DNA from: Nitzschia sp. DOCU1
Taxonomy: Eukaryota > Bacillariophyta > Bacillariophyceae > Bacillariales > Bacillariaceae
Assembly: GCA_951394045.1 (NCBI GenBank)
Contig: OX595997.1
Coordinates: forward strand, 806,001 to 870,000
Direction of reading: 5' to 3'
DNA length: 64,000 bases
Of this stretch, positions 1 to 40,500 are shown piece after piece. Position 1 is the stretch's first letter; each line of letters starts with the position of its first letter. Both the position numbers and the translations under genes were made by a program. Under the pieces are notes generated by a model, which worked only from the letters and a program-made list of their open reading frames with translations, searched no databases and was not told where the DNA came from.

Positions 1-1710
1 CAAAATTACCGTCTTTCCACCACTATTGGGTCCAGTCAACACCAATCCTTGATTCCCATTGGCGCCCAAATCAATGTCGCTGCCAACAACATTGGCAATT
101 TGACGCAACAATAACACAGGATGCTTGGCATCTTTTAAATCAATCACACCCTCTTCCATTACTTGAGGAATGACTCCTTGTAGTTTTCGTCCCAGTAAAC
201 ACCTCGCCAGAACTAAATCTAGTTGACCGACGGCTCGAACCGAACGCTCCAGGTCCCGACGATTGTTCCAGACTTGCTCCGTCAATAGTCGCCACACCCG
301 TGCTTCTTCAGCTTTGAGTTCTCCTTCAGTCTGTCGCAATTCATTGGTCGGACCGACCACTTCACTCGGTTCCACATATACAGTCTTTCCGGATCGCGAC
401 GAGTCATGTACGATTCCATATTGGGTGGCATATTTGGGGTCCATGGGCAAGACGAGCCGACCTCCTCCATTGGAGATTTCCGAATACAAGGGACCCCCAC
501 TTTCGAGTGCCAGCTTGGATCGGACGGATGGCATACTCACGAGGGTATCTAGAGTTTGTAGAATATCGGCTCGAAGCGTTCGAATCTTGGCCCGAAGGCG
601 ACCCAACAACGGGAATGTCGTGCCCGATAATTTACCGTCATTGTCAAAGGCTTCTTCCAACAAATTTTGAAGCGTCGTATTGAGTTGGATTTCGGACACT
701 AGCTGCGGCAATGCTTGAAAGCGAATTTCGTCATCATCAATGCGCAACAAACCCAAGTTCCAGAGTTGCAAGTCTTCCATGGCATTCATCATGGTACTAA
801 CTTCTAAAAGTTCGGGACCTTCCAACACTTGTCCATTGGCAGCCATTTCGAGAATTGAATCCAAATCAAACGATAATCCATCCAAAGGGGGAGGATTGCC
901 ATTGCCCAATGTCACTTGATAGCCTTTTCGATTCTTGTAATAAGCACCCTCTAGAGCTTTGGGAACAGTATCGTATCCATCTTCTAATAGCCACTGCATT
1001 TCTTTGACAGCCTCGTACCGCTCTTGGACGCCTCCTACCGTGGTCGCTACAAGTGGTTGGTAGGCCCGGCCCGGCGGCAGTTTTTTCTTCGTCTTGCCAT
1101 TATCATTGGTTATATGCAATGATTCTTGTACCATGGTCCGAGCTGGTGTCGTGAAACATTCTTTTTGGAGTGCCTTCAACACAACTGGAAAATCCAGAGT
1201 GTCGACGGACCGTTGCAAGAGATTCAATCCATCTTCTAACGATGCCGCGCCCTCGTCCATGTCATCATCACCCGCAGTCGTTCCCACGGTTCTAGTTGTT
1301 GTTTTGGATCCCGATTGTTTCTTTTGTTGTTGCTTATTGGACCACCATTGCAGATTTTGCAGTTGTGGGTCTTGATCTTCTAGGGATTTTGGGGCTTGAA
1401 AGGTGGGATCGGAATTCGGATCCCAGCTATCCTTGAGGAGAGGTTGTCGCAAGAGGGAATATCCGTCTTTACCGGCTCGAAACTTGTTGTTATCGTTGTC
1501 GACAGTAATGGTGGTTGTCGACTCGTCTTGTTGTTGTTCTCCATTCTGAGCGTTGAGTACTGGAGCCCAGCGGCAACGCATCACCGATGACGAAGAAGAA
1601 GAACGACATGTCGTCGTCGTCGTTGTCGGCGCCTGCTGCTGAGAAGCAAGGAATCCCCAGCAGGCAGACGCGAAAATGAAAATAGGTGCTGCTATCCGTA
1701 GATTTCTCAT
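1..1710 (-). CDS. MutS2-family ATPase, probably plastid-targeted (C-terminus beyond window)
   Basis: The minus-strand frame stays open from ATG 1708-1710 to the window edge, giving 570 codons. The N-terminus (about residues 1-25) is a hydrophobic signal peptide ending in FASACWGF, close to the diatom ASAF plastid motif, followed by a Thr/Ser/Gln-rich stretch. Downstream the MutS2 core is clear: the clamp region with GIVHDSSRSGKTVYVEPSE (about residues 430-450), then TGPNSGGKT, the Walker A loop of the ATPase, just before the edge. MutS2 proteins are MutS-like ATPases that lack the mismatch-reading domain and act on recombination intermediates or stalled ribosomes. The Smr nuclease domain, if present, lies outside the window. 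The family call is firm. Plastid location is inferred from the leader, where Cys-Trp rather than Phe follows the putative cleavage site. Confidence 0.9.
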   Translation of the reverse strand, partial: MRNLRIAAPIFIFASACWGFLASQQQAPTTTTTTCRSSSSSSVMRCRWAPVLNAQNGEQQQDESTTTITVDNDNNKFRAGKDGYSLLRQPLLKDSWDPNSDPTFQAPKSLEDQDPQLQNLQWWSNKQQQKKQSGSKTTTRTVGTTAGDDDMDEGAASLEDGLNLLQRSVDTLDFPVVLKALQKECFTTPARTMVQESLHITNDNGKTKKKLPPGRAYQPLVATTVGGVQERYEAVKEMQWLLEDGYDTVPKALEGAYYKNRKGYQVTLGNGNPPPLDGLSFDLDSILEMAANGQVLEGPELLEVSTMMNAMEDLQLWNLGLLRIDDDEIRFQALPQLVSEIQLNTTLQNLLEEAFDNDGKLSGTTFPLLGRLRAKIRTLRADILQTLDTLVSMPSVRSKLALESGGPLYSEISNGGGRLVLPMDPKYATQYGIVHDSSRSGKTVYVEPSEVVGPTNELRQTEGELKAEEARVWRLLTEQVWNNRRDLERSVRAVGQLDLVLARCLLGRKLQGVIPQVMEEGVIDLKDAKHPVLLLRQIANVVGSDIDLGANGNQGLVLTGPNSGGKTVIL

Positions 1711-2210
1711 TTCAATCAAAGTGAATGTTCGTTCCTGGCATGGGTGGTAGTAGTAGCAAACAGGAGTGGAGGAAAGGCTTCGACGATCCTCGTCATGGCG
1801 AATGAAGTTTGCCACCAAGGGAAAAACGCACATTGAAACGTGGCACGAAAAAAGGCGCCCCACATTTCGATTGGCTGACGTGTCATTTCACGCGCATCCA
1901 CTCATGCGCGACCGTCGCGTGCAGTCACGAGCCGCCGTGTCGTGACTGGATGAATACACTGCGTCGGCGAGCGCATAGTACGAGAGTCAAAGGAGTTGGT
2001 CTCCAACGTAGCTACCTTTCTTGATGCATCTCTTGTCCCATTGGTTCATGGCTCCCTACTTGTAGATAGATGTTGCTAAAAGACATTGGAACAATCATAC
2101 CGTTTACTACTTATCGTTCTAGTTCAATCGCTGGCCTTTTCCATTCGAGACTTTGCCATTACCAGGTATCATGAACCCCCAAGTGCATTCACGTCATTAC
2201 ACTACATCTA
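1711..2210. other. Intergenic: MutS2 upstream region and hydrolase 3' flank
   Basis: No convincing gene. It should hold the MutS2 promoter and the 3' end of the hydrolase transcript, since both genes are on the minus strand. A perfect 9-bp hairpin lies at 1922-1948. Confidence 0.5.
1922..1948. repeat. Perfect 9-bp inverted repeat
   Basis: CAGTCACGA at 1922-1930 and TCGTGACTG at 1940-1948 are exact reverse complements separated by 9 nt. It lies about 215 bp upstream of the MutS2 start. It could be a palindromic protein-binding site or a hairpin. No known factor was recognised. Confidence 0.55.
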
Positions 2211-3989
2211 CTAGTAAATAACAGCCACCAAAAACACAAGCCCCATTGATACCACTAGAGAAAACACCCTGGTCGTGGAACTACCAGAGCCCCCAACGGG
2301 AGCCTCGGTGCCAGACGGTTCCCCCGGCATTGCCGAGCCTGGTGAAGAGGTGACGGGGGAAGCCGTAGGAGAGGGGGTGGTGGGTGCAGGAGTGCCAACA
2401 ACGGGAGCCGTCGTGGGTCCACTGGAAGGTGGATTCGATGGCGAGAGCGTGGGCATGGATGTGGCCGAGCAATTTTGGCCGTCGAGGCTTTCTGCAATGG
2501 GGATGGCCTCAAAAAAGTCTGGATTTTCCCCCATCCAAACGGTGATGCCAGCAAAGCACTCAACATTGGAATTCACATGATTGGAGTTGGGCTCCATGAA
2601 TGGTAGGGGAGCTTCGTAGGGAGTGATCAGACCGTCGGTAGGCAGAATCTCGGTGGTCACGGAAGGCACGACGTCATCATTGGGGCTGTGGCAAGTTTGA
2701 ATCGGAAACTCGGAATTAAAGAGCAATGGATAGACATCGGCATTATCGCGAATAGCTTCACACAGGAGATTGGTTTGCTCAGTGATGAATTGATCATCAC
2801 AGGGGCGGCCACCCGAGAGGACTGCCTCGACCGAGGCATCGCCATAGGCCTCGTTGACCATGGTCGGTACGATGTCAAGAGGCTGAATGTAGCCTACCAA
2901 TTCTGTCAAATCTCGATCCTCTCCGAACCACCATTCCGGAACGTTACGGCTGATATCACTTTCGTTGCGCCACGACTCTGCGATGTAATATTGTTCCGGT
3001 GAAGCCGCATTTGCAAGATAGGTGGCATCGGGATTGGAATAACTTGCCATCAACGCAGATCCAAAGAGAGCTGCCGATGGACCGATCACCACACCGTCGT
3101 TAGTTTGCTGAACGTAAAGAAACGAAAACAGACTTTCAATATCGTAGGGTCCCGCCTGCATAAATCCCTGCACAATTTCTACCCCCATTTCTTGCAGGGT
3201 TGCACTCGCCCACATGGCATCATGCGCGCCCAAGCTGTATCCAAACATAAACGCACGATTCTGAAGTGTCGTGCAGCCATTAGTAACTTGGGACGTGTAG
3301 TTTTGGACGGCGTTCCAGGTAATGGCAGCGCCTTGCTGGACGGGGAGCCTGATGCCCCAACTTCGGTCATAACCGACTTCCGACTCGCCGGTACCGAGAG
3401 GATCGAAAATCATGCCAATTCCTCCAGACGAAGCCGTCATGAGCGAGTGAAAGACGTCGATCATTGCAACCGTGAGTCCGTTTTCCTCGCCAGCAAAAGT
3501 ATTATCGATTTCGCCAAGGAGCTCAGTGATGCTGTTGGGGTAGATAAGAGTTGGAGCCATGAAACGTCTCAAGCGAGTACTCAAGAGTGACATTTGCCCA
3601 TTCAACTCTCCATTGAGAACTCGACCATTTTCATCGAGAGGATGAAAGGCCAGGGCCGAATAGGTGGCGTCCGCACCATAGGTTCCCGCTTGGCACGGCG
3701 CAGGAGGTGCGTCAGGAAAGGAATCGGCACAGGAAGCACAAACCTTGGACACGGCCACATCGAACAAGACGGGTGCCGCAAAGATCTCGGCGGCGGCGGC
3801 CGTATCCGTCGGGTCCGTGGTAGCCCCGGCAAACTCAAAGACTTGAGCAAAGACCCCAGCCAATGTGCGAAGTTCGTCTGCCGTAGCGACGCTAATAAGT
3901 TCGTTGCAGGTTCTTTGGGCAAAAGTTGGGCTAAGCAGCTCGGTCGCCAATATGGCAACGGCAAAAATTGGGCCTCTCATCTCAAACAA
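2211..3989 (-). CDS. Secreted alpha/beta-hydrolase with mucin-like stalk and C-terminal anchor
   Basis: A 592-residue single-exon protein. Residues 1-24 form a signal peptide (cleavage likely near TFAQ). The body carries a serine-hydrolase nucleophile elbow GYSLG at 250-254 (Ser252). Candidate acid residues are at 438-439 (SPNDDV) and a candidate histidine is at 471 (NSNHVN), in the order and spacing of an alpha/beta-hydrolase triad, and there are many cysteines as in extracellular enzymes. Residues about 510-570 are Pro/Ser/Thr-rich, like an O-glycosylated stalk. The last 20 residues are hydrophobic with no basic tail, which fits a GPI signal or terminal membrane anchor. Substrate unknown: lipase, esterase or peptidase activity are all possible. 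Probably exported to the cell surface or frustule. Confidence 0.8.
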   Translation of the reverse strand: MFEMRGPIFAVAILATELLSPTFAQRTCNELISVATADELRTLAGVFAQVFEFAGATTDPTDTAAAAEIFAAPVLFDVAVSKVCASCADSFPDAPPAPCQAGTYGADATYSALAFHPLDENGRVLNGELNGQMSLLSTRLRRFMAPTLIYPNSITELLGEIDNTFAGEENGLTVAMIDVFHSLMTASSGGIGMIFDPLGTGESEVGYDRSWGIRLPVQQGAAITWNAVQNYTSQVTNGCTTLQNRAFMFGYSLGAHDAMWASATLQEMGVEIVQGFMQAGPYDIESLFSFLYVQQTNDGVVIGPSAALFGSALMASYSNPDATYLANAASPEQYYIAESWRNESDISRNVPEWWFGEDRDLTELVGYIQPLDIVPTMVNEAYGDASVEAVLSGGRPCDDQFITEQTNLLCEAIRDNADVYPLLFNSEFPIQTCHSPNDDVVPSVTTEILPTDGLITPYEAPLPFMEPNSNHVNSNVECFAGITVWMGENPDFFEAIPIAESLDGQNCSATSMPTLSPSNPPSSGPTTAPVVGTPAPTTPSPTASPVTSSPGSAMPGEPSGTEAPVGGSGSSTTRVFSLVVSMGLVFLVAVIY

Positions 3990-9922: not shown

Positions 9923-12900
9923 ATGTCGTCGGAAGATACGAACATGCTGGAAGATACGATTCCTATGGAAAGCGTCATTGGCCGAGATTCGGTCATGGCA
10001 GATGCGGAAGAAGAAAACTCGTTGCCGGAGGAGGTGTTGCCATCATTGATGTTGGCTAACACTCAAGGCACTTCGGGGTCATATTCCTCGTCGGAGGGAC
10101 TGGCGGAGTCTCCAACGGGATCGACCCCGCCGTCGTCTGGGTGGCACGAGGTTGAGGACCAGGATCTCAACTCCTATGGAAGTGATGAATCATTCTGCTT
10201 CAGTGACGATGAAGTCCTCGCTGAGATTGAAGATTGCGTGATTTCGTCAAAGCCATTCGATATGGCGCTCTTGAAATCGTGCATTCAACGTGGCAGCCCC
10301 ACGCTAGACAAGATCGCGGGCAAGGATGTTGTTCTTGTTGTAGGGAAGACCGGCAGCGGGAAGTCAACATTCATCCAGGGAGTCGCTGGCAAGAAGTTTC
10401 GAGCAACGAAGCACGCTGCCTATTCCAAGGGTGAAAGTTTCGAAAAGCTTGTATTCGAAGCTGAAGAGCCTTTGCAAGGTTTTGAAATTGGGCACGAGAA
10501 GGTCTCCAAAACCACGGCAATTAATTGCTTTGAACGATCGACCGGACGTCGTGATCCGGCACAATTGTTTTATGTGGACTCTCCAGGCTTTGAGGACACC
10601 AGCGGGCTCGAGGTCGATATTGCAACCTCAGTGATGCTAAGCAAAGTTGCCCAGCAATGCAAGAGCTTGCGCTTTGTAATAATCATCAACTACACATCGT
10701 TGATGGAGGCACGCGGTGACGCCATGCGAGCTGTTTTGAAAATCATTCGCACTTTTGTTGAAGATTTCGAAAAAGACAAGAGAAGTTTTCTATTTTTGTT
10801 CTCGCACACCACCGGGTTTCTACCAGAACATACCAAGGCTGCAAACCGACGTCTGCTTGGCGAAATCGTCCATACGTTGCAAGGAACGAAGGACGAAGAC
10901 GTCATGACAGTGCTTCGCTTCATCAAGACATGCCTCGAGAGAAATTATCCTTTCGTGAAAATCTTTCATCCACTACAAACGGATTTTGCCGACCTTACGA
11001 AGTTTGTTGAGTCCAAATTAGGTGCAATCAAGAAACCTGCATTGGCGGCAACCTGTGGGTTGACCTTGTCCTCGCAACTACGGCTCAGAGGTGAAGTCAA
11101 GTCGATGATTTTGAATCTCAGGAATCTGCTGGCAAGTGTACCTGTTGACACTGCCCAAGTGATTTCTATCAAGGAGACGCTGGAATACCTCGGCGAGAAC
11201 ATCGCCATTGCGGACGTGTCCAACGCCATCATCGAATGTAAAGATGCAGTTGATCGTTTCTGCCTTCAAGAGAAACTTGTGATCGACGAGGAAATTGAAC
11301 GTGGGACAAATCTGGCCCAGCAATTTAGTCGAGAGAACACCCTCGCACTGTACCATGCTATGCGCCATCTTAAGGACCTCATCGGTCTATCGGAGGATAG
11401 CCTGGTAAAGCGCTTGACTCCAAAATTACAGTCGTTCAAGAGTGATATTTTGATCGAATCGTTCCACGATTTTCGCACTGTTGCCCTGACGCTGGACAAG
11501 CTTCGTGTATGGGGGGATGCGTTCAATGAGTATGATATCTTTTACGAGGAGGCAGTTCAGTTCCTCCATGATCGATTCGAGGTGCTCGAGAAAAGGTCAA
11601 CTATGTTTCTATCCTTGGATTTGGGGAATGCAGCAGAGCGAGAAATCAATGCAAGCAGTGAAAATATGAAGATTATGTCTTCTATTATCGACCACAAAGA
11701 CGCATTAGCCGAACATTCCCTCCGGGTTGACAAGATCTTCGCCTTGCAAGAAGGAATTAAGAAATATACACTCGACTGCCTTTTGACCTGGAAAGACGAC
11801 TTTGATAGACGAATGTGGTCCGACCCGCTGTCCAGCTCAGAGCTTCGCGAGCTAGGGACTCGCGCAAAAGCCTTGTCGCTGTTGGGCTTGCTCTTCGAGA
11901 CCGTAGCGTACCGCGAGTTGTATGAACTGTCGTCGGAACTGCTGCAGGACATCAAGCATGTGGTCGTTGGCTACTACCAAAATTCTTCTCGAACCTGGGC
12001 GACATCGATCAGTCCTTTGACCCGGTATTCTTTTGATCAAATCAAGACTTTACAGGAGGGAGCACGTTTTTTTTCAGAACTGGGGGACCCGGACTGGAAG
12101 GAGACGGGTTTTGCTTGCGTTGCAATCATTGCAAGCGTACGTTCCCGGTTGTTACAACTAGCCCGCAGCGTCAACGCGAAAGCTGAGTCTGCTAGAAAGA
12201 ATGGAATTTCGGACGCGTCTGTCGAAGGGTGCGCTCTTGTCGGGTTTGATGATCTGATTTGCTTCGACGAGCTCTTCGATCTGAAGGATCGTTTTATGAA
12301 GAATTCCTCGACTAAGATGCACCATGACTACACAGACAGAATGAATTTTGTATCGAAAAGTGTCCATGCATCTCTGCAGAAGCTTTTGAATCCTAATGCA
12401 GACTCCTCTATAGCCCTGAACGACATGAAGATCCAACTTGCAGAAGCTCAAGAGGTTTCTCATCTTGCTTGTCTTCTTGGTGAAGAAGAGTTTTCTCATC
12501 TCGAAAACGACGTCAACTCAAAACTCCTAGAGTTTGTGGATAAAATGAGTCGGCGGGGCGAAGCCTGTATCAAGAATTGGAATGAGTCCTTGGAAAATGG
12601 TCCGAATCTCACAAGGTTGAAGAAGGAAACCGCGAAGCTTGATAGTCTTCTTCACGAGATGAAACATCTAGGAGAGCTCTCAGTCAGTGCAGGGGTTCGG
12701 GCGGGAGCTGACTGTGTCGCGCAATTGATTAAAGATTCTTTTGCCAGCTTTACGCACACCGTCGATAACGAATTCTCCTCTAATGGTGATTTCGAGGTCA
12801 TAAAGAAGCGCCTTGCTTGCATTGAGCAGTTCCAGGAGTTCACCAATGCCATCAAGTTCCTGCCGGCATTTGAAGTCTGTCGGCAGCGGGCAGCGGACGT

Positions 12901-15900
12901 GGTTTCGGAGAAAGCTCGGTCCATCGAAGGTCTGGTAGAAGAGACTGCCGAGTTTGATAAAATCGACCAGCTCATCGTAGACCTCGAAAGAGCCACCGCC
13001 ATCGATGAGTTCATCAACTTTCAGGCTTCTTCTCGCTTGGGCCCGTTGCGCAAACTTCGTGTTCAGAAAGAAGATGACGTGGATACAGTTTTGGTCGAAA
13101 TGATTTCCAAGAACGATTTTAAGGGCATCGGACAACTTCTTTCCCCTTTAGCAGATTCCCAGGACCAGTTGAAGCGCAAAAAATTTAATGCATATGCAGA
13201 TCAGATCTGCTCTGGCCTCCGAGAGCAAATTTCTCAAATCAAATCATCTCTATCCTCATTTCTCAATGATCAAGCCATGAAGTCGATTGTTCACAGCCTC
13301 AAGACTCTTGAGGACGCGGAAAGTGAGATCGGAAGGCACTTGACGGCAAAATTCAATCTGCAAATGGAAGTACGATGTTTGAAACGATCCATCGGAGATA
13401 AACTTGATTCCTATCTCGCAAACTTTGAACTGGCTAAGAAGGAGCTAAACTTTGGGAGGATGGCGGTCGCAAAGTCCAGAGCAAGTTTGTTTGTTCAGTA
13501 CCTTGGCATAAATGCTCCATTTGGTGCGGAGAGGAAAGTTGCTAAAGCGAGTCGCGAATACGATGCGATGCTGCACTCAATCTCGGTACAAGTCGACAAA
13601 TTCCTCAATGAGAGTTTCTCTAACAGTCTGGAACTGTTGAAGCTTCTGGACGGATTGAAAAGAGGAGCCGAGAATTCACACAAGGCCACAGCCGAACTTT
13701 CAAACCTCTATAACAGGCATACAACGAAGATCGAGACAGAACTAGTGACGATTCTCCAGCGCCTGAACAGACGCGTCAGCGAACAGCACTGCTACCACGA
13801 TGGCATTGAACTCCTACTTCCATTGATTCGTGACATGGCGGCGGGCCTTGACAAGCATGTAAACGAGGCTAATTTCCCCTTTGACTGCAAGATCCAATTA
13901 AAAACCTGGCAGGACCTGGCGGAAGAAGAGGATTATGGTTTCAACTTTGACACTGAAGGTGCCGAAGAAGCTCTCAAGAAATTTGCCTTGAAACTCGACG
14001 GCATGAAGTCGCCTAGCTTCTTCTCCGTCGCGGGCATTATGGCAAAGGCCGCACCTTTGTTTGGAGGCATAACATACGAAAGACACTGCCAACAGTGTGC
14101 AACGAGAGCCGCCCAGTTGTACTCTGAAGGCATAGCCTCGCTGCGGGGAGGCGATTTCGATGGCATTCAAAAACGCGTCCTGGCCTTGAATCTGATGAAC
14201 CGCCACCTTGCCAAACATGTACCCATCGCAACAAGCAAATATGTCGATATCAAGCGAGCTATCCAGAAGAGATTGGTGACGATTCTGGAAGACGCTGTTG
14301 CGGCGCTGACGAAATCAAACGTGGTTGGCTTTGAAGGACTTTTTCTGGAAATGAAGGGGATTGTGCTTGGAGTCCCGTGCTCAGTCGAACACTCCCAAGC
14401 CGAAGAAAAAATCCGCCTTATGAACCAACTTGTTCTCCAGACCTTGAACAAACAGATCGATAGTGTGCTGACAATGCTCAGAATGGAAAGTGATCCGCCT
14501 GATTTCTTGGCAGTCAAGAAATTGGTTGAAGACGCACGGTACTTTGGCAGCTTCGCTGCGGACCATTTCACGCTTTTCCATGAGCAGGCGAAGGGTGCAG
14601 GGCATGTGCCCAAGGACGAGGCGCTTTCCAACATTGTCATCCTATGTCATCAACACTTTGGAGCAGGCCGAGATTTCAGCAACATGAGATACTTTGCTAC
14701 CCTGGGACTTGTCCCTTCTTCAAATGAGCAGGATATAAGGCGAGCGTACAAGGCAATGGCGTTGCTCTTCCATCCTGACAAATCGCGCGGTGATACAGAG
14801 GCAAAGTTTCGGGAAATAAAAGAAGCTCATGATGCTCTTCTTGGTGCAGCATCGAAGGTCCATGCTGCTGGCTCCAGGGCTTTCGATCACGAAATCAAAA
14901 GCATAAGCGAAGCTCTAAGGAGAAAGGCGAAGCAGTTCTTGAATGAAGAGCGCTACGATGCCATCGACAGGCTATTGTTCTCTCTACCAGGGCTCAATGA
15001 TGTGAAAGACCTTGTGGATCCAGAGCTGGACTCGCAGCGTATTCAACATGAAGTTGAAGCGCTTGTGAAAGAACATATCAACAAAGTGAAAGTCGAGGTC
15101 GACAGTCTCTGGGCACTACGCAAATACCGAGACCTGAACGACACGATAGAGGACTTAAGGTTGATGGAGCAGCACCTGAAATCCCATGCTCGCGTCTTTT
15201 CAAAATCTTGGAATGAGGGTATCATCCGAACCATCGAATTGGAAATCAAGGACCTTGGTAAAGAGGCTCGAAAATTGCTCTCGTCCAAGACAGTGGCGAA
15301 GGAAAATGAGAGTGAGTTCCGTAGGTGCTTCCTTGCTATGGGCTCCGTTCTCGTCGAATTGCCGACGTTGAAAGATTTTACAAAGAAAATCATGGCCGAC
15401 GTTCTCGAAAGTTGTTTGGTTTCTGAGTGGGGCTTCAGCTACCTCTTCGAGCTTGGATTGAGCCTCCATTGGGGCGGGGACGATGACGATGGTGGTGACA
15501 CAGCCCATGTTGCTCATTTCATTCTAGCCGAGTTTAGCCATTTCAAAGAGGTGCTGACGATGGCGTGGAACACCGAGACGACTCAAAAACCCGCAGAAGA
15601 CACAGTCAAGAGAATCATGGCGCACTCTCTGCTTGGTTCGTCGCAAGCAACGGTTGAGCAGGGCCCGCTACTGGAGAGCTTTGCCATTTTTGAGACACAG
15701 TACAATGCAATGCTTGGTGAATATATCCGGCCCGAGGCCGACAAGGCGGTACTCGCACATAAAATTATCCGTTTTTGTAAATCAATCCAACCTGTTACAT
15801 GCTCTGGCGGATGGAGCCTGGATGTGCGTCAAGGCATTCCGAAGATTCTTGGCGGAGTCTTCGCTCTTTTCACAATTTGCAAGTCCGGCGATAGCTTCAA

Positions 15901-18900
15901 TCGAATCGGGGAGTCCATGGAGGCCTCCAGACTCGGCCAACAAATTCTGATGAAGCCGCACAATATTCAAGTATTGACCTTGCTGTACATGTTTGGTTGT
16001 AGCTCTGGATCGGGCGATGATCTTGAGAGTCAACTTCTGCAGATCCGGACTGGTGAGGGGAAATCCATGATTCTTGGTGCAGCTGCTGCTGTCCTTGGAC
16101 TTCTCGGCTTCCGGGTGCGTTGCGTATGCTACAGCGAGTATCTTTCGAACCGTGACTACGCTCTCTTCAAGGAAGTGTTTGCTTTTTTGGGGCTTGAATC
16201 TCTTATCAAATACAGCAAAATAACCGCTCTTTCGGAGGACACAACAGCGTCCAAGGGTGACATCAGGGGCTTGACGGGAGCCCTTCTCCGCGGAGATCTC
16301 AAATCCTTTTCGACGCCGCAGACTTGCGAAGCACAGTCCAATTGCCAGCATCGGCCCAGTTTGATCAACGAAGAACACCCAGTAGGCAAAAGCAGAGAGG
16401 CAAAAAAATCACCGAAATCATTCGTCGGATATAAGGATTCCGGTGTCAACGAAGTCGATTTCAAGGTGGATGAAGTCGGGAATTCTACTACTTCTGCTAC
16501 TACCGGTAGTACTAATGTCTCCGACTCATTAGTTGCTTGCCCTCAGATAAAGCACGCCGGTGCCGCCGGGGAGGAAGAGATCTTGCTGGTGGATGAAGTC
16601 GATGTTTTCTTCGGCGCTGAGTTTTATGGCCAAACGTACAACCAGGTCTCTCAGATCCGAGGACCTGAGATCCAGACCATTCTGAAACAAATATGGGCCG
16701 CTCATAAGAATGGAGGTCGCAAACTCCGCCTCGCGGACATCAAGGCCACGGATGCATACGGGGGTTTGCTCGCCAAGTTGCCGATGTACGAGTTTGTCAT
16801 CGAAAACGAAATTTCATTGATGCTAGATGATGTACGTCAACTCGAAGACGAACCATACTTCCTCGGTGCAAACGGTCGGATTGGCTACAAGATTATGGAT
16901 ACAATTTGTTTCGACGTAACCCTTGGATATCGGACATCCTTCGCGTATCTTAAGGAGTATGATGCTGGGAATCTTGACGACAAGATACTGGAGAAGGCGC
17001 TCAGCATGAATGTCTCGTGTGGTCAGTTCTCGTACGCCAACATCCATCCAGCAAGAATATTGGGGGTGAGCGGGACACTTGACGCGATGGGAGCCTATGA
17101 AAAGCAAGTCCTCGGAAAGTACGGCGTTAAGAAATTCATCTACATGCCCAGCGTGTATGGTCAATCGAACTTCGAGTTTGAAAGAACTGGTGATGGCATT
17201 TTCATTGAATCGGGAGAGAGCGACTACTTCCACAAGATCTGTAGTGAAATATCCGCGGCAACCGGGACGAACCGTGCCGTCATCGTGTTCTTCGAAAACG
17301 GAAGGAAGCTGAGCGACTTTTCTGCATCAGCTTTTTACCGAAAGCTTGGCCGCAAGAAAACAAAGCTGTCCGAAGATATGGATGCGACAGAGAAGGATTT
17401 CGTGATAAAGAAGGCCTCCACAGCTGGTCAGCTGACGATTTGTTCAGCTGTATTTGGACGTGGTACCGATTTCTTCTGCAAGGACCAGAAAGTCCAAGAT
17501 AATGGCGGCGTCCTAATCATTCAGACGTTCTTGTCGTCCGAGAAGAGTGAGGAGATTCAAATTCAAGGCAGAACAGCTCGTCAAGGGAAACGTGGCGCCT
17601 ATAAACTGGTTCTGTTGGATTCAGACCTGGAGACGAACTTTGGTGTTCAAAAGAGCTTCAGGGACCAAGTCCCGAAGAACAAGTGGTATGAAGATCTCTG
17701 TCGTGCTCGCGACAAGCGATATGGCGAGCAGTGCACCGGGATGGACGCAAACCTGGCGGACGCAAGCAGCCGTGACAAGAGTACGCATCAATATTTCGAT
17801 GCCCTACTCGCTGGGGACCAACGAAATGCAGGAATACTCTTCAAAGAGATTTATTCCTCGATGAAGAAGCGTGCAATGCCTTCTTGCGTTGAAATTGATC
17901 TTGCTTGTGTCATTGACGTCACGGGAAGCATGAGCCCCTACGTTCAGTCCGTCAACGAAACAATGCAAAGTTTGCTCCATGGCAAGGGCGCAATTGTGAA
18001 GAAGCTAAGCACAAAGTTCCCCGAAATTGAATTCAAGCTCCGAGTGGGGCCTTTGGCGTTCCGTGACATTGAAGATGCCACGGACCAATTTTGCGAGAGT
18101 CTTTCTGGAACTGGAAGCCACTTCTTTGAAGATGTTGGCCAGATTCTGCAAGTCATTCAGCGCTTGACTGCATCCCCACGTGGCGGGCAGGATTTGGCAG
18201 AAGACATTCTTGGGGCCTTGAATAGGTGCGTGAGTTGGGACAAGCCTGGCGACTGGGCATCAAACATGAAATTCGTTATGTTGATGACAGATGCCCCCGC
18301 CCATGGGATGGTTCCTTCGTGCTCACGCCAAATTGCACACGTGGACAAGTTCTCGCAAATCCATCCTCTTGGGCTTGCCGCCGATTATGTTGCGGGTACT
18401 TTGGTGAAGAAAGGAATTGATTTGTTCTACTGCTCATTCAATCCGAATGCCACTGCAGTCACCGAGGAACGTCTTTCCAAGGCTTATCAGGATCATCCTG
18501 ACAATACCGAAGGCAACGAAGTCACTTGCATCCCAATGGTCCCCAAGCAGCAGCTGACTGCTGGAGTACCTGCGCTCTCGGGTTGCCAATTCCAACATAT
18601 CATTTTTGTTCTGGACATGTCTAGCTCTATGCAACATAACTGGAGCGGAGTCGTTGTTGCATATCAAAATTTCGTATCAAAGCGGCTGGCAAACCAAAAC
18701 TCGGCGGATCTTGTTTCGGTTGTACAATTCGACGACGCTGCGCATGTCACCGTGAACAAGGTAGCTATCGAGTCAGCCCCAGGGCAACTTGGTTACGGTG
18801 GTCGCGGAACATACTACACCCCAGCTGCACACGAGGCTCGAAACTTGGCCATTTCAACTCCTAGCTCTCATACCCCAGTCGTGATATTCATGAGTGACGG

Positions 18901-19219
18901 GGAAACGTCCGAGGCGGACGCTCTCAACACAGCTCAGATCTTCCAAGATCTTAATCAACAAGTTCTTGCCCAATGGGGAAGGGAGATTGAATTGCATGTC
19001 ATTGCCTTTGGACACGGACTCGATCAACGCCAGCTTTCTTATATCATGAGGTCATCAGGCGGCGGAAGGATTCACACAAGCGTGGACGTTGATCAATTGA
19101 ACAATATTTTCGTCCAAATTGCTCAAACGTCGGACGTGGCCCAACTTTTGGAAGAAGAGATTGCGAGACGCATTTCCGAGGCCGTGTCGAATAAGGTCGC
19201 GCTTGAATACTTGGGATAG
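9923..19219 (+). CDS. Giant GTPase / J-domain / SecA-like motor / double VWA protein
   Basis: A single 3098-codon exon. Residues 1-110 are acidic and disordered, with no targeting leader. A P-loop GTPase-like domain follows: Walker A GKTGSGKS at 141-148 and switch II-like DSPGFED at 219-225, resembling AIG1/GIMAP-type GTPases. Residues about 400-1580 are long, charged and mostly helical. A J domain spans about 1588-1645 with HPD at 1617-1619. A SecA-type motor spans about 2020-2600: RTGEGKS (TGEGKS at 2043-2048), the matching SEYLSNRD block, DEVD at 2224-2227, GVSGT at 2381-2385, GRGTD at 2512-2516 and GRTARQGKRG from 2549. Two VWA domains follow, with MIDAS motifs DVTGS (2665) and DMSSS (2898). 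Plausibly a cytosolic ATP-driven unfolding or remodelling machine that recruits Hsp70. The function is inferred from domains only. Confidence 0.88.
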   Translation: MSSEDTNMLEDTIPMESVIGRDSVMADAEEENSLPEEVLPSLMLANTQGTSGSYSSSEGLAESPTGSTPPSSGWHEVEDQDLNSYGSDESFCFSDDEVLAEIEDCVISSKPFDMALLKSCIQRGSPTLDKIAGKDVVLVVGKTGSGKSTFIQGVAGKKFRATKHAAYSKGESFEKLVFEAEEPLQGFEIGHEKVSKTTAINCFERSTGRRDPAQLFYVDSPGFEDTSGLEVDIATSVMLSKVAQQCKSLRFVIIINYTSLMEARGDAMRAVLKIIRTFVEDFEKDKRSFLFLFSHTTGFLPEHTKAANRRLLGEIVHTLQGTKDEDVMTVLRFIKTCLERNYPFVKIFHPLQTDFADLTKFVESKLGAIKKPALAATCGLTLSSQLRLRGEVKSMILNLRNLLASVPVDTAQVISIKETLEYLGENIAIADVSNAIIECKDAVDRFCLQEKLVIDEEIERGTNLAQQFSRENTLALYHAMRHLKDLIGLSEDSLVKRLTPKLQSFKSDILIESFHDFRTVALTLDKLRVWGDAFNEYDIFYEEAVQFLHDRFEVLEKRSTMFLSLDLGNAAEREINASSENMKIMSSIIDHKDALAEHSLRVDKIFALQEGIKKYTLDCLLTWKDDFDRRMWSDPLSSSELRELGTRAKALSLLGLLFETVAYRELYELSSELLQDIKHVVVGYYQNSSRTWATSISPLTRYSFDQIKTLQEGARFFSELGDPDWKETGFACVAIIASVRSRLLQLARSVNAKAESARKNGISDASVEGCALVGFDDLICFDELFDLKDRFMKNSSTKMHHDYTDRMNFVSKSVHASLQKLLNPNADSSIALNDMKIQLAEAQEVSHLACLLGEEEFSHLENDVNSKLLEFVDKMSRRGEACIKNWNESLENGPNLTRLKKETAKLDSLLHEMKHLGELSVSAGVRAGADCVAQLIKDSFASFTHTVDNEFSSNGDFEVIKKRLACIEQFQEFTNAIKFLPAFEVCRQRAADVVSEKARSIEGLVEETAEFDKIDQLIVDLERATAIDEFINFQASSRLGPLRKLRVQKEDDVDTVLVEMISKNDFKGIGQLLSPLADSQDQLKRKKFNAYADQICSGLREQISQIKSSLSSFLNDQAMKSIVHSLKTLEDAESEIGRHLTAKFNLQMEVRCLKRSIGDKLDSYLANFELAKKELNFGRMAVAKSRASLFVQYLGINAPFGAERKVAKASREYDAMLHSISVQVDKFLNESFSNSLELLKLLDGLKRGAENSHKATAELSNLYNRHTTKIETELVTILQRLNRRVSEQHCYHDGIELLLPLIRDMAAGLDKHVNEANFPFDCKIQLKTWQDLAEEEDYGFNFDTEGAEEALKKFALKLDGMKSPSFFSVAGIMAKAAPLFGGITYERHCQQCATRAAQLYSEGIASLRGGDFDGIQKRVLALNLMNRHLAKHVPIATSKYVDIKRAIQKRLVTILEDAVAALTKSNVVGFEGLFLEMKGIVLGVPCSVEHSQAEEKIRLMNQLVLQTLNKQIDSVLTMLRMESDPPDFLAVKKLVEDARYFGSFAADHFTLFHEQAKGAGHVPKDEALSNIVILCHQHFGAGRDFSNMRYFATLGLVPSSNEQDIRRAYKAMALLFHPDKSRGDTEAKFREIKEAHDALLGAASKVHAAGSRAFDHEIKSISEALRRKAKQFLNEERYDAIDRLLFSLPGLNDVKDLVDPELDSQRIQHEVEALVKEHINKVKVEVDSLWALRKYRDLNDTIEDLRLMEQHLKSHARVFSKSWNEGIIRTIELEIKDLGKEARKLLSSKTVAKENESEFRRCFLAMGSVLVELPTLKDFTKKIMADVLESCLVSEWGFSYLFELGLSLHWGGDDDDGGDTAHVAHFILAEFSHFKEVLTMAWNTETTQKPAEDTVKRIMAHSLLGSSQATVEQGPLLESFAIFETQYNAMLGEYIRPEADKAVLAHKIIRFCKSIQPVTCSGGWSLDVRQGIPKILGGVFALFTICKSGDSFNRIGESMEASRLGQQILMKPHNIQVLTLLYMFGCSSGSGDDLESQLLQIRTGEGKSMILGAAAAVLGLLGFRVRCVCYSEYLSNRDYALFKEVFAFLGLESLIKYSKITALSEDTTASKGDIRGLTGALLRGDLKSFSTPQTCEAQSNCQHRPSLINEEHPVGKSREAKKSPKSFVGYKDSGVNEVDFKVDEVGNSTTSATTGSTNVSDSLVACPQIKHAGAAGEEEILLVDEVDVFFGAEFYGQTYNQVSQIRGPEIQTILKQIWAAHKNGGRKLRLADIKATDAYGGLLAKLPMYEFVIENEISLMLDDVRQLEDEPYFLGANGRIGYKIMDTICFDVTLGYRTSFAYLKEYDAGNLDDKILEKALSMNVSCGQFSYANIHPARILGVSGTLDAMGAYEKQVLGKYGVKKFIYMPSVYGQSNFEFERTGDGIFIESGESDYFHKICSEISAATGTNRAVIVFFENGRKLSDFSASAFYRKLGRKKTKLSEDMDATEKDFVIKKASTAGQLTICSAVFGRGTDFFCKDQKVQDNGGVLIIQTFLSSEKSEEIQIQGRTARQGKRGAYKLVLLDSDLETNFGVQKSFRDQVPKNKWYEDLCRARDKRYGEQCTGMDANLADASSRDKSTHQYFDALLAGDQRNAGILFKEIYSSMKKRAMPSCVEIDLACVIDVTGSMSPYVQSVNETMQSLLHGKGAIVKKLSTKFPEIEFKLRVGPLAFRDIEDATDQFCESLSGTGSHFFEDVGQILQVIQRLTASPRGGQDLAEDILGALNRCVSWDKPGDWASNMKFVMLMTDAPAHGMVPSCSRQIAHVDKFSQIHPLGLAADYVAGTLVKKGIDLFYCSFNPNATAVTEERLSKAYQDHPDNTEGNEVTCIPMVPKQQLTAGVPALSGCQFQHIIFVLDMSSSMQHNWSGVVVAYQNFVSKRLANQNSADLVSVVQFDDAAHVTVNKVAIESAPGQLGYGGRGTYYTPAAHEARNLAISTPSSHTPVVIFMSDGETSEADALNTAQIFQDLNQQVLAQWGREIELHVIAFGHGLDQRQLSYIMRSSGGGRIHTSVDVDQLNNIFVQIAQTSDVAQLLEEEIARRISEAVSNKVALEYLG

Positions 19220-19282: not shown

Positions 19283-20338
19283 CTATTTGAGAGAGACCAT
19301 CAGTCCTGCTAGGGATGGATCACCAAACGCTGTTGTCAAGAGCCCACTGGTGCCGTACCATAGAAGAATACCGGCAGTGAATGGCGTCACCCAAGGTGCA
19401 ATCTTGCCATAGATGGATGTTTGATCGTCGCCCATTTGCTTTAACCGTACCAGCGCTTGCCCACCCGTAGCGGCCGTAAGAAGTAGCGGTGTTGAATATC
19501 CCAGAGTATAAAAGAAGAGTAGCAGTGCTCCCAGCGCTGGATTCGAGCTATTCGCAACAAACGCCAGAATGCTCGTTAGCACCGGCGTCGCGCAAGGAGA
19601 TGCTATTAGAGCCGACGACCCTCCAAGAAGAAAGGTTCGAAATAACGATCCTTGCTCCTTTTCCTTGTCTTTGCTAAGGATATTTCCACTTGCATCAATC
19701 AGAATAGGTTCGTCTCCTTTCGAGGTCGTCGAAGGTTGGAGGTTTGGGAGCGGCAGATCGATCAACTCCAGAAGCTGCAAGGCCATCAGGCAACAGATTC
19801 CGTTGGAAAGAAGCGGGAGCAATATATTGGTATTACCACTGTTTCCATATACAGCACCACCCACCAACGCGGCAATGAGTCCCAGAGAACAAAATACCAT
19901 CGCTAGACCACCGGCAAATGCAAGCGTCGGGAGCGTGGTAGCCTTGTCTTTACGCTCTCCCGCCGCCGTGGAGATATAGGACATTGTGAGAGGGAGCAAA
20001 CCCCACACACATGGCGAAACAGACGTCAAAAGTCCTGCTCCGTACATGACTGGAATAGATGAAACAAGATTGGAAGGATCTTTCAGGCTCGTTGACGCCA
20101 TGCTGTTCGCGGCGTTCTGGGCATTGAAGACGAGATCTTCCCAATTTGTCATTTGAAGGGAAACGTCGCGGCTATCAATATGCCTGGATGGCCCGGGGCT
20201 GAAGGGTTGTTTGCCAGAAACATTCACATCTGTCATTCGCGAGGGGTGTACAAACGCCGCCGAAAGCGATATTCCGGTTGACGCCGCTGCCAAGAGCGCA
20301 CCAATGATTCTCCGCTTATCAAAACGCTTGTGGATCAT
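19283..20338 (-). CDS. ccdA: CcdA-type thylakoid thiol/disulfide transporter
   Basis: The frame extends up to 20605, but I place the start at Met codon 20336-20338. From there the protein (351 aa) opens with KRR, a hydrophobic signal and LSAAFVHP, an ASAF-type plastid motif; the upstream 89 codons look like translated 5' UTR. The membrane domain carries the two hallmark half-repeats, each with one redox cysteine: SVSPCVWG near the first helix and IASPCATP in the middle. About six helices are visible. CcdA proteins carry reducing equivalents across the thylakoid membrane for haem attachment to c-type cytochromes. The gene is convergent with the giant gene, and only 63 nt separate the two stop codons. 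Confidence 0.88.
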   Translation of the reverse strand: MIHKRFDKRRIIGALLAAASTGISLSAAFVHPSRMTDVNVSGKQPFSPGPSRHIDSRDVSLQMTNWEDLVFNAQNAANSMASTSLKDPSNLVSSIPVMYGAGLLTSVSPCVWGLLPLTMSYISTAAGERKDKATTLPTLAFAGGLAMVFCSLGLIAALVGGAVYGNSGNTNILLPLLSNGICCLMALQLLELIDLPLPNLQPSTTSKGDEPILIDASGNILSKDKEKEQGSLFRTFLLGGSSALIASPCATPVLTSILAFVANSSNPALGALLLFFYTLGYSTPLLLTAATGGQALVRLKQMGDDQTSIYGKIAPWVTPFTAGILLWYGTSGLLTTAFGDPSLAGLMVSLK

Positions 20339-21343
20339 ATTTGCGAAACGCGGCTGCAGGTATTCCTTCTCAAACGGAATCTTCTGGATCGAGTAGTTGA
20401 CACGAATAGTTGCAATTGCTTTTAAAGCTTTTGAATGATGAGCACTATGCAACAGCGGCAGGTTTGTTCTCAAACGACACAGTTCTGCTTCATCATCACC
20501 ATGGTGTCGTGGTGGAATGAAATAGCGTGTTGTTTCGGATGTGACGTGTTCCGCAGTCACGCAGGTGTCTGGAAAAACAGCGATCCCTCCGATTCCGTCA
20601 ACCACGTTGAAGTCGGCTGAGTCAGCATTATGTCCCGCTAGCGCTCGCGCATGCGAGGCTATTGGTTAGTACCACGATGGGTTTGCAACTACGACAGATG
20701 CTTGCTAGAGTAGCACTATTGAGCAATACGTAACAACAACTAAGTCACCAAGTAGAGATTCACAAGACAATGGGCTGCCTCTATAATCTTGACAGATTTT
20801 GGTATCCTTGTGAGATGTTATCGTTGATGGTGCAGTCAAATTTCCGCGACTGTGATGCATTTTCTGCCGATGAAGTATCGACGGTGAAGTATCGACCGTC
20901 GTCGAAGGTCGTCATGCGCCCTTCGTTGTACGAGAGGTTTCGTTCAAGATAATCCTTTTGTCCTCCGGAATACGTAATTGAGCTCTACAAAGTCATATTG
21001 TAATACCAGCAGTAACGCAAAACGACCAATCCTTGCGCATACGCTCGACAATTTCAGGTGTCATAAAAGGAAAGTTTCTAGAAGACAAGCAAACATGATT
21101 GTTCGTCTTTTTCTATACATAAACTAGCATTTCATAGTTTCCAGGCCACATGCAATCCTCGCACAAATGAGCATTACCATGCGTTCCATGACTCGCATTA
21201 ATCTTCGTGTGGTCAGGTCATTAATCCATCCATCAATCCATCCAACTTCCATTTCAGCGACAAGTCCTCCGGTCGTAGCAAATGAGACGGACACAGATTA
21301 TCTCACCGCCAAATCATCATCCCAGATATTCAACACAATAAAT
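20339..21343. other. Intergenic: CcdA upstream region and aldolase 3' flank
   Basis: About 1 kb. It contains the CcdA promoter, including the in-frame upstream codons 20339-20605 that lack a recognisable domain, and the aldolase 3' UTR. Nothing else was identified. Confidence 0.45.
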
Positions 21344-37558: not shown

Positions 37559-40500
37559 TCAACTATCGTTCTTGTTCGACTTCTTCGGATTCCTTGCGGC
37601 GGACTTCTGCCGCACCATTTTCGGAATATCAACGCCTTGGCTGAATAGCCATTTCAAGATTAGGAATTCGTCAGAAGCGGTCTTGACGCACACGTTCTTG
37701 GCATCCCAACTAGCGCGAATCAAGGTGTAGATCGTGCTTTCGACCGCGGGGTGGCTAGGGCCGACCAAATGACAGAAGATGAAAATCTTGTAGCCTAGCA
37801 CTTCGGCCTTCGCAGGAATTGTCTCCAGGGAAGATGATGACTGCCGTACCGGCAGGCTCTCCGTAGATTGGGTTTGATCGGGACTCGGGGGCAGCCGTTC
37901 GTCGTAAATAGCATCACGATCCTTCATGGATGGACTCATTGCTCGCCGCTGTCGAAGTCCTTCCCTTGTTGGGATCCACCCAATCATGCCTGGATCTAAA
38001 AAATCTTCACCGCCATGGGCTGGTAAGCCACATTCCAGAATCTCGGCCGTTGATTCTTCCAGTTTTCGAAGCACCGGGTCAGTTGCCGGCTGAAACCGGC
38101 GCGGTTGAAACCGGATCTTTGGTTCCTTAAGTTGAAGCAAAGAGGACACCCACCATTCTCTGTTTTGGCCCCACCACGTCGAGTTGCCGTTCTGATATTC
38201 ATGATTCACTATCCTGGGGTGCCGGAGCACGTTGCAATGATCGCACTTACTCCTGTGCTCACTTGCATCACTAACAGAAGCGGGACATTCACCCACAGGC
38301 CCCAACACCTGCACAAGTTTGCGCCAGTGCTGGATATCACCGGGATCGTTTTCCACTTCGGCGGCCCAAAAATCTGCAGTCTTGGAGCTTTCGACAATCG
38401 ACTGCCGAGCAATATCAGAATGTTCCTGTAAGAAGCGTTGGTAGGAATGGTACCGATGTAGAGAGGATATTCTTTCGATGTTTGCGTCCAATGTTTCTCC
38501 GGCCAGAAGAGCAACCACTTGCTTCCACTCGAGAACTGATACCAAAGTCAAATGAGCCTTAGTTGCGCCTCCCTGATGCCGAGTCAGGGTATACAGAACT
38601 CGAATGGCCAAAGAGAGCTGCGAGCCAACCTCTTCATACTTTGGGAGTTTCTCGCGAATTTCATGCTTTAGGTAGTCGCGATCGCTGCCCAAAAGCTCGT
38701 ACCCCTTGCGAGACCGGCTGGAGGAGTATCGCCGTGCGGCAGATCCAATGCGATTCCCAGAACACAAAAGAAAACACACGGCAAGCGCTCCGATATACCA
38801 AGCATGGTAATCAGGTTCCATGGGTGTAGCCTTGAGGCATTTCTCAAATATCTCGGCCACCTCAAAAAACATGTATTCCCATTCACCTGCTCTCTTCGCC
38901 TGGTCACCGTCCCCGAATCCCGAATCCTCTGCTCCTAGAATGTACCCATTACTTTCAAGGTATTCACATGTTTGACGCATGATGTGCAGAGGTGTGGGGC
39001 ATTCATTTTTGTCCAATGCTCGAGTTAAGATCTCCGCGGCTCCGGCGGGAAGTTTACGGGCAACAGAGGCGAGGGCATAGGTGGCGTGCAATCGAGGAAA
39101 GCGGACAAGTCCATTGTGCTGAATACGATGTTCGAGAAAGTCAAACAGGTGGTTTGCAACCCGGCGCGTATCCACCACATGCGATTCACCTGTGATATAT
39201 AAATCGTCGTCCGGTTCTTCTTTGATGGGAGTATCGACTTCTTGCTTGACCTTTGCCTCGTCCTGCGGTGCAAGGATGGGGCAACCATTGGCCCAATAGC
39301 TGCAATAGCTCTGGATAGCACGATAAAATTGGACCAAAGGCACATCTTTTATTTCGCCTCTAGAGAGCACAAAAGTTCTTCGATATGCCTTATTTTCGGC
39401 AATATCGGCATACTTCACCAGCAGGGATTGAATTTGCTGGGCGACCTTCACTCTTTGCTCCTGGTCACAGCGGACTACCCGTGACAGCAATGTAGACAAT
39501 GCGAGTTGAAACATTCCATGATGGACTCGAATTTCTTGATGATCGTGCTTAGAATGACGGTCAAAGGACCCGTATATGATCCCAACTGGATCCAATGGAA
39601 ACGGTGGAACGGGAGGTGATGTTCCAGGCATATGAGCGAATGCGGTGGTGGGAACGAGCTTGGCCTCTGTGGCAGCGATTTGCTCATTCTGGTACTCCTG
39701 TAAGACATTTGTCTGGAGATCGATAATTACGCCTCCTGTGCTCGTGCCATCTACCGTTTCTGCCGTCTTGACCCTTTCATGAAGTTCTTCAGAATCCATT
39801 GGAAGGGAAACAGCTCGAGGCTTGCCAGTTTCAACGCCGCGTTTGGGTTCTTCGTTTTGTTCTGTTCCCGAACCAACCTGTTCGTCTGGTTCGGTCTTCA
39901 CATGGGAAGTCATGACATCACTCGAATAATCACGTTTTCCCGATTCAGCACTACCCTCCTCACCAAGTGATTCGTTGATTTCAGAAGGCTCGGCCTTTGC
40001 GTCCATTTGAATAGCTTCCAAATGACGCTGGGAATCAGCGGTCTTTACCTGCACTCCAACAAGTTCATAATGCTTCTCTTGTTCATCTTTCTTCTCGGCA
40101 GCTTCCGAGTCTACCGTGGCGATGTCTTTGTGAATCCAGGGCCGCGATCCCAGCTTGTATGCCCCTGCGACATTTTTCCGCCGTGTTTTGAAAAGGCTGA
40201 GAACAGTGCTTGGATTTTGCATCCGACCGGCCAGAACATTATTGGAGGCCACGGGAGACTCTTGTAGTAGACACAGCTCTCGAGCCACTTTCGCAGGATC
40301 GGACCAAGTATTTCTCGAAAACAGCAAAGCGTTGCGGCCCAATTGATGAGAGAGTCGAAGATACGTCATGGATGGTGCAAACCTTGCCAGCCATCGTGAT
40401 TCTCCATCGTGATGCACCAAGGGTGAAAAAAGCAGCCGCAAATATCGATTTTCCGTCTGAGGGTCTTCTCCCAAGGAACCACCACACAAATGCCGCGTTG

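Follow-up and report, generated by a model that had tools for sequence, protein, structure and literature searches.

A giant diatom protein carrying a GTPase, a J domain, a SecA-type motor and two VWA domains is one branch of a broad eukaryotic and bacterial family

SecA is the protein export motor of bacteria and plastids. Domains related to it also occur in other settings. The portions considered here of a 2013 study of Wolbachia wBol1 describe long eukaryotic secA-domain genes in insects, Daphnia, Tetrahymena, Polysphondylium and Salpingoeca, and exchange with intracellular bacteria, including transfers to Wolbachia and Amoebophilus (PMC3639933). The portions considered of three further papers place SecA among the eukaryotic-like domains of phage WO (PMC5062602), GIMAP-type GTPase and SecA-like domains among the effectors of Amoebophilus (PMC3482391), and describe secondary SecA_DEAD proteins, among them one that also has NACHT and TPR (PMC4452313). 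In those portions of the four papers we found no description of a GTPase-SecA core or of a J/VWA fusion. What was considered of PMC8195603, PMC5313232 and PMC8163844 proved irrelevant. Our search of the open-licence literature, in which most papers were judged by their listing, found none on a GTPase-SecA architecture, and no published assay of such a eukaryotic SecA-type motor.

The gene studied here lies in a window of 64,000 nucleotides, the whole stretch of DNA that was analysed, from the diatom Nitzschia sp. DOCU1. It occupies positions 9923..19219 of the forward strand, on which all of its features given below also lie, and encodes 3098 amino acids plus a stop. The frame begins with ATG and its translation is free of stop codons; because the surrounding open frame is 3102 amino acids in full, the ATG stands at its very beginning. 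A first-pass annotation, made from the sequence alone, had described a GTPase, a J domain, a SecA-type motor and two VWA domains in one uninterrupted frame, and the translation, Pfam and fold models bear this out. All of the motifs it named are present in the order claimed (residue numbers in brackets): GKTGSGKS (141), DSPGFED (219), HPD (1617), TGEGKS (2043), VDEVD (2223), GVSGT (2381), RGTD (2513), GRTARQG (2549), DVTGSM (2665) and DMSSSM (2898). Among the Pfam models that it had proposed to search, DnaJ (E = 4.2e-11), SecA_DEAD (3.5e-10) and VWA (5.5e-9) scored over the cut-off, but AIG1 and SecA_PP_bind (PF01043) gave no match at E ≤ 1. VWA_4, on the first VWA (7e-5), and P-loop_SecA (4e-4) fell under the cut-off. 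The claim that the protein has no targeting leader also holds, the highest 19-residue hydropathy mean being 0.31 among windows starting in residues 1-60.

Relatives match end to end, P0002 for example with residues 1-3098 of the query to 1-3077 at 53% identity, and such full-length collinearity excludes chance. Two relatives from the mmetsp source, which names them as transcripts, carry the domains fused in one frame each: P0044 has GTPase, J domain and motor, and P0028 has J domain, motor and both VWAs. These fusions argue against separate genes. Separate genes or a frameshift, which the first-pass annotation had named as the outcome that would overturn it, are rejected on the strength of the single open frame, the collinear relatives and the fused mmetsp frames together. 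Downstream, a DsbD_TM-type membrane protein is encoded on the reverse strand (19283-20605), convergent with the giant gene across a gap of 63 bases. A further reverse-strand frame of 1448 residues (37559-41905) has no Pfam match at E ≤ 0.001.

The motor spans residues ~1934-2650 (15722..17872), as delimited from Pfam, alignments, a structure model, and fold and profile comparison. The full SecA series (Walker A, DEVD, G-SGT, GRGTD and GR--RQG) is present. Motif searches and alignment place Walker A TGEGKS at residues 2043-2048 (16049..16066), the Walker B or DEAD-type box DEVD at 2224-2227 (16592..16603), motif V GRGTD at 2512-2516 (17456..17470) and motif VI GRTARQG at 2549-2555 (17567..17587), and GVSGT (2381-2385; 17063..17077) aligns to the G-SGT/G-TGT motif of SecA. 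The catalytic residues are invariant or almost so in the family alignment. This does not rest on another motor alignment, for which 81 of the 121 sequences had been picked by their Walker A and motif VI patterns, so that conservation at those two sites reflects the selection.

At the sequence level the second half of the motor already finds SecA chains in the PDB (7xha, for one, at E = 6.7e-8), and in the fold comparison the best SecA rows stand ahead of other superfamily-2 proteins by ~9.5 Z units. Profile comparison likewise puts the motor nearer to SecA than to the rest of superfamily 2. The first-pass annotation had singled out residues 2000-2620 as the region that might prove unrelated to SecA, and both comparisons favour SecA there. 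We conclude, with good support, that the motor is of SecA type and not an ordinary DEAD helicase. A nucleic-acid helicase or RNP remodeller that uses a SecA-like superfamily-2 core is very improbable given the lead of the SecA rows, the ~150-residue insert between DExD and GxSGT, as in SecA, and the lack of any Pfam RNA-binding domain at E ≤ 1, SecA_DEAD being the sole motor model over the cut-off.

In the model secondary structure that insert is a subdomain on a two-strand stem (residues 2238-2370; 16634..17032). It may be the counterpart of the preprotein cross-linking domain (PPXD) of SecA; PF01043 has no match at E ≤ 1, though the subdomain occupies its place in the model. Before the first VWA the motor model has one 45-residue helix (2585-2629; 17675..17809) and one 15-residue helix. 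From its position and the range of the structural alignment, the longer one probably takes the place of the long scaffold helix of SecA. Neither PF07516, which covers the helical scaffold/wing and the two-helix finger, nor the SEC-C zinc C-tail has a Pfam match at E ≤ 1.

The first half of the motor contains a predicted disordered insert (2133-2217; 16319..16573; pLDDT <50 at model residues 231-316), which is variable among J-bearing members. The distance from Walker A to DExD is 181 in the window protein and 160 in the mmetsp protein P0028; it ranges over 102-233 in 79 J-bearing proteins, as against quartiles of 101-103 (maximum 174) in 144 others. A retained intron at 2133-2217 was considered and rejected, short of proof, on the grounds that length at the same site varies among relatives, P0028 included.

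The N-terminal P-loop GTPase (residues ~109-380; 10247..11062) was recognized from a family HMM, a fold model and the conservation of G1 and G3, whose residues are invariant across 42 aligned sequences. Its P-loop GKTGSGKS was located by motif search at residues 141-148 (10343..10366). The HMM, built from the family including the window protein, matches residues 109-463 with E = 5e-140. Pfam is weak here, with MMR_HSR1 at E = 0.04 and Dynamin_N at 0.17, and GBP, like AIG1, has no match in the protein at E ≤ 1. The structure model of residues 100-760 (pLDDT 86.7) is a P-loop GTPase followed by helices, which agrees with the GTPase originally read from the Walker A and DSPGFED motifs. The matches of this model to known folds point to no single GTPase family: EngB (Z = 14.8), GIMAP7 (14.1), Era (13.9) and Toc34 (13.1) lie within two Z units of one another, and the top Foldseek match is GBP1 (E = 1e-5). 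Because Pfam AIG1 is absent and the fold matches favour no one family, the AIG1 label given at first is unsupported.

A long spacer (residues ~382-1585; 11066..14677), helical in the model up to residue 760, leads to the J domain (1589-1645; 14687..14857). The latter is intact as first described, with the Pfam match given above, an HPD motif found by motif search at residues 1617-1619 (14771..14779), and matches to DnaJ chains in the PDB (best E = 3.4e-10). The region between J domain and motor (1660-1933; 14900..15721), which is captured by a family-built HMM (mid1), is conserved in the J-bearing branch. Behind the motor stand the first VWA (2655-2870; 17885..18532), with DVTGSM and TDAP, and the second (2891-3067; 18593..19123), with DMSSSM. 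Both have the MIDAS-type signature and fold that had been claimed for them, the first on the fold model and its sub-threshold VWA_4 match. Within the matched stretch D-x-T/S-x-S is found in 65 of 65 members having VWA1, and the second VWA has D-x-S/T-x-S in 66 of 66.

A search with the motor region found 131 proteins. Among the 120 listed are diatoms (Cylindrotheca, Seminavis, Thalassiosira, Pseudo-nitzschia, Epithemia, Nitzschia, Skeletonema and Amphora), Chrysophaeum, Cymbomonas, Symbiodinium, Acytostelium, Monosiga and many unnamed proteins. A second search, with the bacterial protein L006, found 524, and the 120 listed add rotifers, Reticulomyxa, Tetrahymena, Blepharisma, Hydra, Hexamita and Arcella. 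The family thus spans diatoms, other algae, ciliates, a foraminiferan, amoebae, choanoflagellates, Hydra, rotifers, a diplomonad and bacteria. The first-pass annotation had known of no characterized eukaryotic protein with this architecture; the fused protein is real, but its architecture is not unique, belonging to one branch of an extensive family that eukaryotes and bacteria share.

Scanning bacterial and archaeal genomes gave 51 loci. Against the family profile, nine of these (L006-L014) reach 347-620 bits, the next-best locus 155. All nine are from MAGs, titled Legionellales, Gammaproteobacteria (three), Chlamydiae (three), Margulisiibacteriota and Actinomycetota, and the family GTPase is present in seven. 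Neighbours were checked for three of the nine: RNase E stands beside L008, and dnaQ and nhaA beside L014, all of them clearly genes of bacteria, and an ankyrin-type frame beside L006. Very long proteins with SecA motors also occur in Elusimicrobia (L033, L034) and Oscillospiraceae (L024, L030, L038, L040), at 1622 to 4359 residues with some frames open-ended; they score far below the GTPase-SecA family. A viral source of the gene is not supported: 85 stretches in viral contigs fit a pattern and none was confirmed by tblastn.

Domain content was counted in 130 proteins (the 120 listed motor-search matches, the window protein and the nine bacterial loci), all of which have the motor by selection. 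The GTPase was found in 93, the J region in 88 (69 with HPD), VWA1 in 49 and VWA2 in 66, many proteins being incomplete at one end. The 119 proteins newly listed in the L006 search have the GTPase in 93 cases and VWA1 in 17, with VWA2 and J region in none; Pfam DnaJ is absent from all 120 listed rows. Several of the 26 newly listed proteins that lack a GTPase may be incomplete, given lengths of 1624-2649 residues. From the P-loop to Walker A the window protein has 1902 residues. For 58 J-bearing proteins the 5-95% range of this spacing is 1895-2026, and for 96 others it is 1741-2172. In bacteria it measures 1948, 2042, 1897, 1286 and 988, as taken from four of the nine loci (with L006 represented by the full protein P0126) and from P0133, with P0126 and P0133 also counted within the 96. 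Based on the domain counts and spacing, the ancestral unit is likely a GTPase, a spacer of usually ~1900 residues, and the motor. The VWAs come and go within the family, whereas for the J domain a single gain in the algal branch, followed by losses, is the best reading. Since J domain and VWAs are optional and the GTPase and motor recurrent, Hsp70 recruitment is unlikely to have been the ancestral role.

The length of the protein, its helical spacer and this fairly constant spacing would also suit a large protein that acts as a scaffold or forms a vault-like shell, its GTPase and motor driving slow changes of structure instead of processive pulling. The strong conservation of the ATPase motif residues speaks against such a structure, which we regard as improbable.

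Two quick motor trees, both with SH-aLRT support only and several long branches, were compared. For the 95-row tree, a similarity filter reduced 156 motors to 101, and six secondary-SecA rows were then removed by hand; it includes many unnamed metagenomic proteins. The 94-row tree was hand-picked, with named rows kept separate, and holds named proteins, bacterial family frames, 16 unnamed proteins and six outgroup rows. In both, a branch with SH-aLRT 100 parts the GTPase-SecA family from secondary SecAs (in the 95-row tree, from 27 secondary and canonical SecA rows), and the window motor falls on the family side. All 37 J-bearing rows of the 95-row tree lie within one clade of 47 (SH-aLRT 100), with ten rows lacking J; its named members are algae. 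The clade of the window gene has 21 rows in the larger tree and seven in the other, both at SH-aLRT 100, and its named members are diatoms. In the 94-row tree some bacterial members branch first, and L006, L012, L014 and P0133 fall among eukaryotes. With quick trees and long branches, this mixed placement tentatively fits a bacterial start with repeated transfer.

The motor-region search found a single copy in the source genome. Searching the genome with SecA_DEAD yielded two further SecA genes: a full-scoring secA on contig C63 (58732-59841, L001; 385.8 bits), possibly on the plastid genome, and a match in two pieces with one TAG within (C2:3447565-3448724; L002, L003), perhaps an intron-split nuclear secA. 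The SecA-type motor, the nesting of the gene among diatom genes and the presence of Toc34 among the GTPase fold matches could suggest a SecA-like translocase acting at the membrane of an organelle, be it plastid, periplastid space or ER. The protein, however, has neither a leader nor a Pfam SecA_SW or SEC-C domain, the genome has the separate secA on C63, and relatives occur in plastid-free rotifers, Hydra and bacteria. We consider such a translocase the least probable of the readings weighed.

The fold and family membership of the window protein are well supported; that its motor pulls polypeptides is inferred. We tentatively favour, at a little short of an even chance, a cytosolic polypeptide-pulling machine that is SecY-free, GTP-gated and fed by Hsp70, and that unfolds or disaggregates proteins or remodels complexes. 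The motor would grip unfolded polypeptide in a SecA-like clamp and pull it with ATP. SecY would have no part in this, since the elements by which SecA docks on SecY and drives through it are apparently missing. The GTPase, ~1900 residues away, would set assembly or turn the machine on, the J domain would deliver Hsp70 together with a client protein, and the VWAs would use a metal ion to hold a partner protein and so govern the choice of client or location. The net result would be unfolding, disaggregation or complex remodelling. More speculatively, though still a serious possibility, such proteins could join AAA+ unfoldases and Hsp70 as a third type of machine that pulls proteins in the cytosol: a SecY-free SecA motor under the control of a GTPase ~1900 residues away, spread over eukaryotes and protist-associated bacteria, to which algae added a J domain of their own as a built-in link to Hsp70.

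The main rival is a machine of immunity or conflict, in which the GTPase would act, like those of GBPs, GIMAPs or NLR-like proteins, as sensor or switch for assembly, and motor, VWAs, kinase and U-box would be exchangeable outputs directed at intracellular invaders; copies in protist-associated bacteria would be opposing or borrowed versions. Several proteins per species are found in some lineages, with at least six in Epithemia, at least seven in Adineta steineri and at least three in Tetrahymena utriculariae (on equally long contigs) among the matches listed. Partner domains vary, two Cymbomonas members (P0087, P0095) having an extra protein kinase domain and a Gammaproteobacteria MAG protein (P0133, K2X50_00940) an N-terminal U-box of the eukaryotic ubiquitin-ligase type. 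Some bacterial members are nested among eukaryotic ones, GBP and GIMAP are among the GTPase fold matches, and SecA-type domains occur, according to the portions considered of three papers, in effectors of Amoebophilus, in Wolbachia and in phage WO (PMC3482391, PMC3639933, PMC5062602). Against this stand the single copy that the motor-region search found in the source genome, the near-invariant catalytic residues of the motor and the lack of a convincing match in PADLOC (best E = 9e-4, on the P-loop). We judge this reading rather unlikely, but it and the pulling machine may both hold, as a pulling motor could serve defence. In Pseudo-nitzschia multistriata, two paralogues (P0033, P0036), whose contigs are equally long (60350) and apparently one and the same, differ in that one has HPD and the other has lost it; a division of labour in a hetero-complex is possible.

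What gives the family its interest is a SecA motor that is broadly distributed in eukaryotes together with a GTPase, with the Sec-channel parts apparently missing and the catalytic residues kept. If the motor pulls polypeptides, eukaryotes own a further protein-remodelling engine. The J domain offers a direct handle, with Hsp70 stimulation and client capture approachable in one construct, and the exchange with bacteria, several of them from protist-dwelling groups, raises the question of its direction and purpose.

Set against known systems, the window protein shares with SecA and SecA2 a two-part DEAD-type motor, the SecA motifs, a subdomain inserted between DExD and GxSGT and a long helix after the motor. 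Unlike them it lacks Pfam matches to the cross-linking, wing/scaffold and SEC-C domains, is fused to GTPase, J and VWA domains, has no leader, and is separated by the branch with SH-aLRT 100. The eukaryotic secA genes of PMC3639933 are likewise very long with a SecA domain, and the motor clade here (94-row tree) includes Tetrahymena and the choanoflagellate Monosiga; the portions of that paper considered here name no GTPase, J domain, VWA or algae, and its Wolbachia and insect genes lie outside our comparison. As in GTPases of the GBP, GIMAP and dynamin types, a P-loop GTPase is followed by a helical stretch, but Pfam AIG1 and GBP matches are absent and Dynamin_N is weak. As in DNAJC-like proteins, an HPD-bearing J domain stands beside other domains; we know of no further J protein reported to carry a SecA motor. 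The VWAs share a MIDAS-type metal site with those of the vwkA and integrin types, and the DVTGSM...TDAP form of the first recalls vwkA, but here they stand behind a SecA motor in a protein with no leader. New among these comparisons is that the window protein is one branch of a broad GTPase-spacer-motor family.
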